NCBI RefSeq assembly: GCF_014859555.1
Contig: NZ_JACUTY010000002.1
Coordinates: forward strand, 1 to 64,000
Reading direction: 5' to 3'
DNA from: Thiomicrospira sp.
GTDB lineage: Bacteria; Pseudomonadota; Gammaproteobacteria; Thiomicrospirales; Thiomicrospiraceae
Length of the DNA: 64,000 nt
Shown: positions 59,118 through 63,170 of the stretch, one piece after another
Layout of the letters: every line of letters begins with the position of its first letter
Numbering within the stretch: position 1 is the first letter of the stretch
Position numbers and translations under genes: made by a program
Notes under the pieces: generated by a model
Database searches by the model: none
Told to the model about the DNA's origin: nothing
The model's input: only the letters and a program-made list of their open reading frames with translations

Positions 59118-59324
59118 CTAATCAGGCCAAACACGACGACTTAAAATTACTTTTTTTTCTGGCTCTTTCTTTACAGCAGGTTGTTTTTGTGGCGGTTGTT
59201 TTTTTTCAGTTACCGGTGCAGAAGGCTTCTGTTCTGCAACTTCACTTGCAGAAGTGCTTTCTACTTCATCACTTACAACCGAATCATTATTTTGTGTAGT
59301 TTTTGGTTTACGTCTAGTTACCAT
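59118..59324 (-). CDS. mcdB: alpha-McdB-like carboxysome positioning adaptor
   Basis: 68 aa, low-complexity/disordered, C-terminal 'RRVWPD' (terminal Trp as reported for alpha-McdB); overlaps the end of the ParA gene. Confidence 0.75.
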   Translation of the reverse strand: MVTRRKPKTTQNNDSVVSDEVESTSASEVAEQKPSAPVTEKKQPPQKQPAVKKEPEKKVILSRRVWPD

Positions 59325-59946
59325 CTATTTCCTCCCATAAAAGGTTTATTTCAAGTTTAGCTTTTTCATTATCCATTTCAACGACACCACGCCCCATACC
59401 CATTGAGTCTCGGTATACCTTTCGATCACGGACAATACTTTTCAACAACAACAATTCACTATAATCGGCAAGATACCCTTGGGCTTCTTCAACCTCCTTA
59501 ACCGATGGATTAGTTGGAGCAAGGGTTAATACCGCACGAACTCGAAGATTTGGATTATAATCTCGAGATAGTAAAATTATTTCTTGCAAACTTGGGAGTA
59601 CATCCAAGTCAGGCTGAGACGGTCTAAATGGCACTAGCAAGGTGTCTACAGCGGTAAGCCCTGTTCTAAGCTCTCTGCTATCTCGGCCACCAGCATCAAC
59701 CAGTACGTACTCATAACGCTTACCCAGATCCAAAACGGTATCACGGATATTATCAAATGCCTGAACATGGTGGACACGAGGTAAGTCTAACTCCTGCCTA
59801 TCTAAACACCAGTTGGAGGAGGTGCCTTGCCGATCAGCATCAACAATGATCACATCTTTACCTTTAGACGCTAATAAGGCCGCAAGATTAACAGTTAAAG
59901 TGCTTTTACCACAGCCGCCTTTGATATTGCCAATTTGAATAATCAT
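59314..59946 (-). CDS. mcdA: McdA-like ParA ATPase
   Basis: Deviant Walker A 'GNIKGGCGKSTLTVNLAALLAS', 'VLVDAGGRDSRELRTG'; adjacent to csoS1D and McdB-like gene. Confidence 0.82.
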   Translation of the reverse strand: MIIQIGNIKGGCGKSTLTVNLAALLASKGKDVIIVDADRQGTSSNWCLDRQELDLPRVHHVQAFDNIRDTVLDLGKRYEYVLVDAGGRDSRELRTGLTAVDTLLVPFRPSQPDLDVLPSLQEIILLSRDYNPNLRVRAVLTLAPTNPSVKEVEEAQGYLADYSELLLLKSIVRDRKVYRDSMGMGRGVVEMDNEKAKLEINLLWEEIDGN

Positions 59947-60006: not shown

Positions 60007-60621
60007 TTAAATACCCGTTAACTGTTCTATGGCCCGAGTAGCGGCTTCAGCGGCGACATTTATATCAGCCTCATTACCTGCCAAAATCAATCGGCCATAT
60101 GCACCAATAGCTCTAGCCTCGATCAGTGTAATATTAGCCGCCTTTTCAGCTTCATTGGCGGCATATACAATATAACCAGCGGGCTCTGTCTCAAGAATAT
60201 ACATACTATGACCAGGTAACATCATCGAACCTCGACGGTTATCCCTGTTAATCAAAACCGCATGGTCTGGCATTATAGATCGAATTATTTCATTCCACAT
60301 TATCCGACACTTCTGACGGTTACACTCTGTTGTTTTTAAAAAATCCAACATTGTTTTTCCCGATTCCAGCACATCACTCTGATCACGGTGATGTATAAAC
60401 ATTGAGCCATAAGCCCTCTCAACTAACTGCTGACCTAAATGCACGTTGGATGATTTTAAAGCTATATCCGTCAAACGATGAACGGCCATACCAGGAGCGA
60501 CTTCCAACCAAAGACAAGCGTCTCCTGGCACAGGTAAAAAACCCTGTGAGGCTGTACCCATATAGGATGCAATCTGCGGTTGAAGTGAATTGATGTTTAT
60601 ATATGTTCTAAGTTTAATCAT
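60007..60621 (-). CDS. csoS1D: CsoS1D-like tandem BMC-domain shell protein
   Basis: '[71 protein letters not shown]' and second BMC domain '[29 protein letters not shown]'. Confidence 0.9.
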
Positions 60622-60633
60622 AATATTTAGTAC

Positions 60634-61251
60634 TTAATCTATTTGTGCCAACAGGGCACGCAAGGCTTGCGTACGATTACTTAGCCTTGATTTAATAACG
60701 GGTGTGAGTTCGGCCACGGTTGCCCTTTCACGCAAAAGATAAAAAACAGAATCATATCCATAACCTTCTTTACCACGGGCTTCATTCAAAATATAACCGG
60801 TCCAATCCGCCGTCACACATATCGGCAAGGGATCCATAGCATGCCTTACATAAGCCATAGTGCAAACGTATTTAGCCTGTCGATGGCCCTCCGGAACGTC
60901 GTGCATTACTTTCAATAATTTTTGCACATTAGCATAATCGTCAGCGTTTTCACCGGCAAATCGAGCGGAAAACAAACCCGGCGCGCCATTCAATGCCTCA
61001 ACAAACAAACCGGAATCGTCACCGATAGCCGGTAATCCAGTTTTCTCTGCGGCAAAGCGAGCTTTAAGAATAGCATTTTCAATGCAGCTATGGCCTGTTT
61101 CCTCTACCTGATCAGAAAAGAACTCAGACTGCAAATACACATAGTAACCTTTCAAAACCGCTTGCATCTCTACAAGCTTACCAGGATTACCAGACGCTAA
61201 AACAATCGGCTTAGTGTTTTGATAGCCCGCTAGTTTATAAGGAGAATACAT
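60634..61251 (-). CDS. rdgB: RdgB/Ham1-family non-canonical purine NTP pyrophosphatase
   Basis: 'IVLASGNPGKLVEMQAVL', 'ETGHSCIENAILKARFAAEKTGLPAIGDDSGLFVEALNGAPGLFSARFAGE'. Confidence 0.9.
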   Translation of the reverse strand: MYSPYKLAGYQNTKPIVLASGNPGKLVEMQAVLKGYYVYLQSEFFSDQVEETGHSCIENAILKARFAAEKTGLPAIGDDSGLFVEALNGAPGLFSARFAGENADDYANVQKLLKVMHDVPEGHRQAKYVCTMAYVRHAMDPLPICVTADWTGYILNEARGKEGYGYDSVFYLLRERATVAELTPVIKSRLSNRTQALRALLAQID

Positions 61252-61265
61252 TAGATAAATCCTGT

Positions 61266-61808
61266 TTATTCAGGCATCACAGACGAGTGATGATGAACAA
61301 TTTTCCAATCATTATTACGGAACTCATAAACAAAAGTATAACGCGCAGGAACCTCTTTCGTACCTGACTTATCTGTCAACCGAAAAGAGTAAATCCCAGC
61401 GTCCGTTAATTTATTACAACCTTTTTTAACATTACGTTGCACAATAGTTCCAACAGGCTTTTTTTCTAAAAAATGTGAAAAATAATCTTCAATCTCAGCC
61501 AGGTTTGTTCTGGCTAAATTTGATACCGTTGGTAGCAATACGGCGTCATCAGCATAAAGCGCAGAAACGGCTTTGGGATTAAGTGTTTTTAAGGCCGCAC
61601 TCCATTTATCAAAAAGCTCTGCAGCCAACTTCTCATCTACTGGCGCACAAAAACTATGCTCGTTAGCCGACAAGGTATCTATAGGGCGAGACGAAACGCC
61701 TGTCACTAGCTGAGAAGGGGTTCTCAATGAAGTACTTAAGCTGACCCGTGCCTTATTTTGACTTTCGATACCAAGTGTTCCGGTTATGTGAACCGTTTGA
61801 TTTTTCAT
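61266..61808 (-). CDS. Iota-class carbonic anhydrase (CaMKII-AD/COG4337-like) with N-terminal extension
   Basis: 'FDKWSAALKTLNPKAVSALYADDAVLLPTVSN' and C-terminal 'RYTFVYEFRNNDWKIVHHHSSVMPE' (HHHSS signature of iota-CA). Confidence 0.78.
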   Translation of the reverse strand: MKNQTVHITGTLGIESQNKARVSLSTSLRTPSQLVTGVSSRPIDTLSANEHSFCAPVDEKLAAELFDKWSAALKTLNPKAVSALYADDAVLLPTVSNLARTNLAEIEDYFSHFLEKKPVGTIVQRNVKKGCNKLTDAGIYSFRLTDKSGTKEVPARYTFVYEFRNNDWKIVHHHSSVMPE

Positions 61809-61889: not shown

Positions 61890-62858
61890 CTATGTTTTGG
61901 CTGTCTGAAAGTACTCAGTACCTTTTTCAAGTAAAAACTCTAGAAATTCATTGGCTAAAATTGACAATGATTTACCCGTAGGATAAACAATATTCAGCTC
62001 TTTTTCTAACGGGAAACCTTCAACATCTAAAATAGCCAAGGGCCCTTCTACGCCCTCTATATATAGTGAGTGCTTAGGCACAACTGAAATACCCAAGCCC
62101 CCAAATACAGCATGCTTGATGGTCTCTGTACCTTCTAATGTAAGCTTTTCGTTAATGACCAAACCTTGTTGATTAAACCTTTCCTCAACCGCGGAACGAA
62201 TCCCTGAACCAACTTCTCTCATCAAAACAGGCTCTTCAGCAATGCGAGTTAATGAAATGTTTTTAACCCCAACGAGTTTATGATCTCGATGTGCAATAAA
62301 TACCAATGGATTTGGAGCGAAAGGTATAACAACGGCATCTAGTGAAGTTGGCGGCTTTTGACCCATGATGTATAAGTCATCCAGATTCTCTTCAATTCGA
62401 CTTAAAATTGTTTCTCGATTACAAACGGTAAAAGATAAATCAATATCAGGATATTTTTTTGAAAAATCACCCAGTGCTAAAGGTAAAAAATACTTTGCCG
62501 TCGTTACTACCGCGACCCTTAGACGACCTTTCCTCATACCTTTGAAATCATTTAATTTCATTTCAAGGTTTGATAGCACGTCAATCACCTGGCGACAAGA
62601 GTACGCCACCTCTTCACCTACATCTGTCAAATATATATTACGGCCGATTTGCTCATACAACGGAACATCGAGACTTTCCTGAAAACTTTTTATTTGAGTC
62701 GAAACAGTCGGTTGAGTCAAATGCAAAGCTTCAGCTGCTTTTGTAAAACTACTGTAACGTGCAACTGCTTCAAAAACCTGAATCTGACGCAAAGTCAGAT
62801 ACCGGATTAAGTGATGGCTAGAACCAAATTCCTGCGCATTTTTTGTCACATTACTCAA
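61890..62858 (-). CDS. LysR-type regulator (CbbR-like, CCM-associated)
   Basis: 'RQIQVFEAVARYSSFTKAAEALHLTQPTVSTQIKSFQESLDVPLYEQIGRNIYLT'. Confidence 0.88.
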   Translation of the reverse strand: MSNVTKNAQEFGSSHHLIRYLTLRQIQVFEAVARYSSFTKAAEALHLTQPTVSTQIKSFQESLDVPLYEQIGRNIYLTDVGEEVAYSCRQVIDVLSNLEMKLNDFKGMRKGRLRVAVVTTAKYFLPLALGDFSKKYPDIDLSFTVCNRETILSRIEENLDDLYIMGQKPPTSLDAVVIPFAPNPLVFIAHRDHKLVGVKNISLTRIAEEPVLMREVGSGIRSAVEERFNQQGLVINEKLTLEGTETIKHAVFGGLGISVVPKHSLYIEGVEGPLAILDVEGFPLEKELNIVYPTGKSLSILANEFLEFLLEKGTEYFQTAKT

Positions 62859-62867
62859 CCTTAAGAC

Positions 62868-63170
62868 TTATTTACACTTACTAGGTGTTAAAACTTCTGC
62901 ATTCAAACTAAACATAAAATAGTGATAGCCCTTTTTAACGTCTTTCATTAGTTCATCACTCACAAGACCATACTGATCTTCATTGACCATAACCATAAAT
63001 AAAATATTACTGTCCGCATCAAAGTGGCCCGATTGAACTCCCGAGTCTCCTTCTCCAGAAACATAAAAGAAAGTAAAACCTGTAATACCGACCTTTCTAA
63101 ATATTTTTTTTACGCGGTCTTCTAAGGTATTAGATGTGATTATCTGCATCAACTTTTGGTTACAAGACAT
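62868..63170 (-). CDS. PII-like protein (SbtB/CPII type)
   Basis: 100 aa ferredoxin-like PII fold pattern, directly downstream of sbtA; C-terminal 'TPSKCK'. Confidence 0.72.
   Translation of the reverse strand: MSCNQKLMQIITSNTLEDRVKKIFRKVGITGFTFFYVSGEGDSGVQSGHFDADSNILFMVMVNEDQYGLVSDELMKDVKKGYHYFMFSLNAEVLTPSKCK

Follow-up and report, generated by a model that had tools for sequence, protein, structure and literature searches.

A carboxysomal iota-carbonic anhydrase of Thiomicrospira with a disordered N-terminal extension proposed as a targeting tag

Within the window, that is, the whole stretch of 64,000 nucleotides of Thiomicrospira DNA analyzed here, a gene on the minus strand (positions 61266–61808) encodes a 180-aa iota-carbonic anhydrase (iCA) that we consider, on balance, to be a carboxysomal enzyme equipped with a disordered 57-residue targeting tag, which would most probably dock to shell hexamers via [IV][ST]G motifs. 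The role of iCA as the carboxysomal carbonic anhydrase (CA) of Thiomicrospira has already been published and is not new. What is added to this known enzyme is the targeting role proposed for its extension, which is undiscussed in the available portions of the carboxysome literature found; Wieschollek 2024, which lies outside that literature, may cover it.

The enzyme and its genomic setting

The ATG of the iCA ORF is preceded by a Shine-Dalgarno-like AGGA, and its product matched the CaMKII_AD/iota-CA domain (PF08332, 1.1e-19) as well as PDB entry 3h51, both by sequence (9e-36) and by fold in a Foldseek search (TM 0.84). The catalytic domain, recognized by the invariant columns of the family alignment and by the fold, comprises residues 58–180 (61269–61637, minus strand), and the C-terminus reads HHHSSVMPE. 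Residues T94, Y109, H173, S175 and S176 are invariant in the alignment and the HHSS motif is present; judged by motif context, T94, Y109, H173 and S175 would be the counterparts of T106, Y124, H197 and S199, which are described as the catalytic residues of all2909 (PMC8132391). The AlphaFold2 model reached a pLDDT above 84 over most of the domain. The protein is thus an iota-CA of the COG4337/CaMKII_AD type with a complete catalytic set, for which CA activity is predicted. Some members of the iota-CA class are metal-free. For two other iota-CAs, Hirakawa 2021 saw no clear bicarbonate dehydration, the direction needed in carboxysomes, which counts against the proposed role. Two cysteines, C54 (61647–61649) and C131 (61416–61418), are nearly invariant in the family alignment; they also occur in several exported iCAs, are absent from the 3h51 alignment and may form a disulfide. 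The preliminary description had read the ORF as an iota-CA preceded by a 57-residue extension that contains HITG and LVTG and lacks a signal peptide, a reading borne out by the sequence, PF08332 and 3h51: HITG occupies residues 7–10 and LVTG residues 34–37, and residues 1–57, as read from the sequence, hold no hydrophobic stretch that could serve as a signal peptide.

The gene belongs to a set on the minus strand of the window that comprises, besides iCA, an sbtA bicarbonate transporter gene cut by the window end and complete in locus L058 (63187–63999; PF05982, 5e-93); a P-II-like protein, SbtB-type by position (62868–63170; PF00543, 1.5e-12); a CbbR-like LysR regulator (61890–62858; PF03466, with NF045990 at 2.6e-58, below the cut-off); a HAM1/RdgB-type NTP pyrophosphatase between iCA and csoS1D (60634–61251; PF01725, 1.2e-53); a csoS1D-like tandem BMC shell protein (60007–60621; PF00936 at 3.8e-10 and a CcmP-type NCBIfam at 1.1e-69, below the equivalog cut-off); an mcdA-like ParA ATPase (59314–59946; PF13614, NF041546); and a small mcdB-like protein (59118–59324), named for its position after mcdA and its low-complexity sequence, with no family match. 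This order agrees with the csoS1D/mcdAB neighborhood that the preliminary description had given for iCA. Along the contig, where the cbb and cso genes were named by sequence and position, a single strand carries cbbL, cbbS, csoS2, a gene for a 332-aa protein, csoS4A, csoS4B and two csoS1 genes, then ferritin-like, pterin-dehydratase-like and SulP transporter genes, sbtA, the P-II-like gene, LysR and iCA, followed by HAM1, csoS1D, mcdA and mcdB. Consequently csoS2 lies on the same contig and strand as iCA, 8 kb away, and csoS1D lies near iCA. The HAM1/RdgB gene also adjoins csoS1D in carboxysome loci of Thiomicrospira and of several genomes of genus g3.

No match to PF08936 (CsoSCA) was obtained in the genome to which the window belongs (G000), which answers the question of csoSCA presence raised in the preliminary description. 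The 332-aa protein between csoS2 and csoS4A (L058:10704–11702, on contig C133 beyond the window) matched CsoSCA_N at 1.5e-6, which fits the 'degraded csoSCA' that PMC9164163 reports in Thiomicrospira. Across the genus the body of this CsoSCA_N-like remnant is 12–19% identical, the closest pair reaching 63%, and its N-terminal R[SA]P[SN]G[KR]x[IV]T motif is retained. Thiomicrospira carboxysomes are stated to contain iCA in place of CsoSCA (PMC12628692, citing Wieschollek 2024). Together with the presence of CsoS2, the missing PF08936 match and this published account of the genus uphold the suggestion of a carboxysomal iota-CA replacing CsoSCA. We conclude that iCA is the carboxysomal CA that replaces CsoSCA, its presence in purified carboxysomes having been reported for the genus, not for this species. 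The genomes that bear CsoS2 and iCA and are CsoSCA-negative were those of eight Thiomicrospira, G178, G009 and G061, and CsoSCA and an extended iCA coexist in many others. Two CsoS2-bearing genomes of family f44 (G105 and G245) matched neither CsoSCA nor iCA, and one genome labeled by kinship as belonging to the genus of the window (G004, locus L074; 83% complete) has CsoSCA and no iCA.

Features and distribution of the extension

The proposed carboxysome-targeting tag consists of residues 1–57 (61638–61808, minus strand); the proposal draws on modeled disorder, conservation and its association with CsoS2. Residues 1–45 are disordered in the AlphaFold2 model (pLDDT below 50), and no helix was modeled in residues 1–58, where pLDDT is below 50. 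A total of 34 distinct extended iCAs were collected from 30 gammaproteobacterial genomes of at least five families, drawn from relatives and from family, class and phylum samples. Motif 1, an [IV][ST]G element reading ITG at residues 8–10 (61779–61787), is found in 34/34 of them, a universality that is partly by construction since the collecting pattern required it. Motif 2, an [IV][TS]G element reading VTG at residues 35–37 (61698–61706), is found in about two thirds; part of genus g3 has VTxR in its place, and tandem second iCA copies lack it. In loci L060, L068 and L069, such a second copy without motif 2 sits on the far side of csoS1D, with about 1.9 kb separating the two copies. Almost all of the 34 sequences also conserve a PIDT element (residues 42–45, 61674–61685) as IDT, IDV, FDT or VDT.

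The extension could in principle be a neutral relic, for example of a lost signal peptide, in which two [IV]TG motifs arose by chance, given that the motifs are short and that related iCAs are exported. We regard this as very improbable, however. Two or more [IV][TS]G motifs were present in the first 57 residues of 0/370 background proteins and in 17 of 9,885 windows of 57 residues (0.17%). The extension is moreover kept in five families or more, and its dN/dS of 0.015–0.11, obtained at near-saturated dS, indicates purifying selection.

The occurrence of the extension follows that of CsoS2. CsoS2 was detected in 29 of the 30 genomes with an extended iCA, the exception being G119, which is 84% complete. 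When Gammaproteobacteria were sampled evenly (369 genomes), CsoS2 was present in 9 of the 10 genomes with an extended iCA, vs 72 of the 369 overall (Fisher 2e-6, a value that ignores phylogeny), and accompanied none of the eight strong unextended iCAs. In genomes negative for CsoS2, iCAs begin with a signal peptide, as is often the case, or carry no extension at all. The extension is kept even where iCA lies far from csoS2 or csoSCA (G178, G422, G329, G023 and G013), the distance from csoS2 being about 80 kb in G178 and more than 500 kb in G422 and G329. In the phylum-wide sample the full extension was found in no other genome, and strong iCA matches there begin at residue 32 or later. This tight association with CsoS2 genomes strengthens the idea of targeting. 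Apart from extended iCAs, CsoS2-bearing genomes yielded just two strong iCAs, both fusions of an FKBP-like domain to iota-CA, located in the carboxysome loci of G009 and G061 (L061:13477–14169 and L148:6202–6924), the former matching FKBP_C (PF00254) at 2.1e-5; both genomes are without CsoSCA. Since these fusions reside in carboxysome loci and lack the extension, recruitment through the tag has at least one alternative.

The same data bear on the possibility that the extension serves the enzyme in its structure or regulation, for instance as a dimer clasp or a C54–C131 redox switch, and that iCA is trapped passively or via its catalytic domain. The near invariance of both cysteines is in its favor, as is the report that HnCsoSCA enters shells by non-specific contacts, with no defined peptide described in the available text of PMC12646314. 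Yet residues 1–45 were not modeled confidently against the domain, several exported relatives have both cysteines without the extension, and the extension tracks CsoS2; we judge this explanation to be unlikely.

Likeness to CsoS2 and the proposed docking

The preliminary description had likened the extension to CsoS2. By hhalign, residues 7–30 (HITGTxGI...VSLSxSLR; 61719–61790, minus strand) aligned with the [IV]TGTxG...RNxS segment of the CsoS2 C-terminal domain (CTD) with a score of 19.8 and P of 0.0048, the assigned probability being only 7%; 0/600 column shuffles scored as high, and 3/300 in a narrower set. The middle repeats of CsoS2, to which the description had also pointed, were rejected as the match, as evidenced by the two best matches against the full CsoS2 alignment, which lie in the CTD (the end of F2, then the C-terminal peptide). 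Nor did the motif spacing of CsoS2 carry over: the distance between the [IV]TG motifs is 27 residues in this iCA and 27–29 among extended iCAs, vs about 8–11 residues in CsoS2. Profile searching had been named as the means of judging the likeness, and the outcome was divided, with a similarity found by profile-profile comparison and not by a genome-wide HMM, the latter speaking in part against the likeness. Searched against the ORFs of the loci, the CsoS2 CTD HMM gave iCAs as its top non-CsoS2 matches (E of 0.12 and 0.16); searched across 18 whole genomes, it returned no iCA at E≤10. Comparison of the extension with PDB sequences gave no match, to a CsoS2 chain or otherwise, and iCA had no match to PF12288 (CsoS2). 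Because the genome-wide CTD HMM was without an iCA and the hhalign probability was 7%, we class the likeness, as judged from these alignments, as short-motif similarity, not homology. The N-terminus of CsoSCA was tried as a source of the extension and rejected, as no alignment was obtained in a profile-profile comparison.

The mechanism we propose starts from the report that [IV]TG motifs of the CsoS2 CTD contact His79 of CsoS1A (PMC10484944); the CsoS1 sequence of this genome has His at position 79. In addition, encapsulation has been achieved with the CsoS2 CTD as the anchor or peptide (PMC11365436). In an alpha-carboxysome that lost CsoSCA, the iCA would convert bicarbonate to CO2 for use by Rubisco, and its disordered 57-residue N-terminus would act as the carboxysome-targeting tag. 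Its [IV][ST]G elements, and residues 7–30 in particular, may run alongside shell-protein strands close to CsoS1 His79, the way CsoS2 does, and the docked extension would anchor iCA to the inner face of the shell. That the extension targets iCA and that [IV]TG mediates the docking are both inferences.

The main competing explanation, which has some merit and which we nevertheless hold to be improbable, is that the extension brings iCA into carboxysomes through contact with Rubisco (or with CsoS2 or CsoS1D) and not with shell hexamers. CsoSCA is reported to bind Rubisco by its disordered N-terminus (PMC12646314), and the conserved PIDT and SLR/QR elements go beyond what [IV]TG alone explains. 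Against this, the extension shows no profile similarity to CsoSCA N-termini, and the sole above-shuffle match found was to a shell-binding segment of CsoS2. Docking on the shell is the reading that we prefer. More tentatively, and with slightly less than an even chance in our estimation, the CA may have acquired a mimic of the scaffold's shell-docking sequence as a cargo tag, in at least five gammaproteobacterial families and, in some of them, before CsoSCA was lost.

Comparison with known carboxysome and encapsulation systems

As to how CA enters alpha-carboxysomes, the study of CsoSCA, in its available text, found no defined shell-binding peptide (PMC12646314). If true, an [IV]TG-type tag on iCA would be a testable recruitment rule, would account for the replacement of CsoSCA by an unrelated CA, and would offer a compact CA plus tag usable for building carboxysomes elsewhere.

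The closest known system is the iota-CA of Thiomicrospira carboxysomes, for which PMC12628692 cites Wieschollek 2024 and which shares the genus, the enzyme class and the CsoSCA-less alpha-carboxysome. The exported bacterial iota-CAs, of which that of X. campestris (3h51) is the nearest structure, share the domain, with 53% identity over the aligned part; where iCA has the extension, CsoS2-negative relatives of this type carry a signal peptide or nothing. The CTD of CsoS2 (F2 and F3/C-terminal peptide, as described in PMC10484944) resembles the tag in its [IV]TG motifs, its ITGTxG...xS-type segment, its disorder and its shell context, whereas the iCA tag is N-terminal, not C-terminal, and has at most two motifs, 27–29 residues apart. 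With CsoSCA the tag has in common a disordered N-terminal region on a carboxysomal CA; the two differ in that there is no sequence similarity and in that the CsoSCA peptide is described as binding Rubisco, the shell being bound non-specifically (PMC12646314). Encapsulation peptides of other microcompartments are likewise short tags linked to cargo, but they are described as short helical domains (PMC12339742), and no helix was modeled in the iCA tag, at a pLDDT below 50. A scaffold mimic on the enzyme, should that reading be correct, would constitute a route distinct both from that of CsoSCA and from that of the helical encapsulation peptides.
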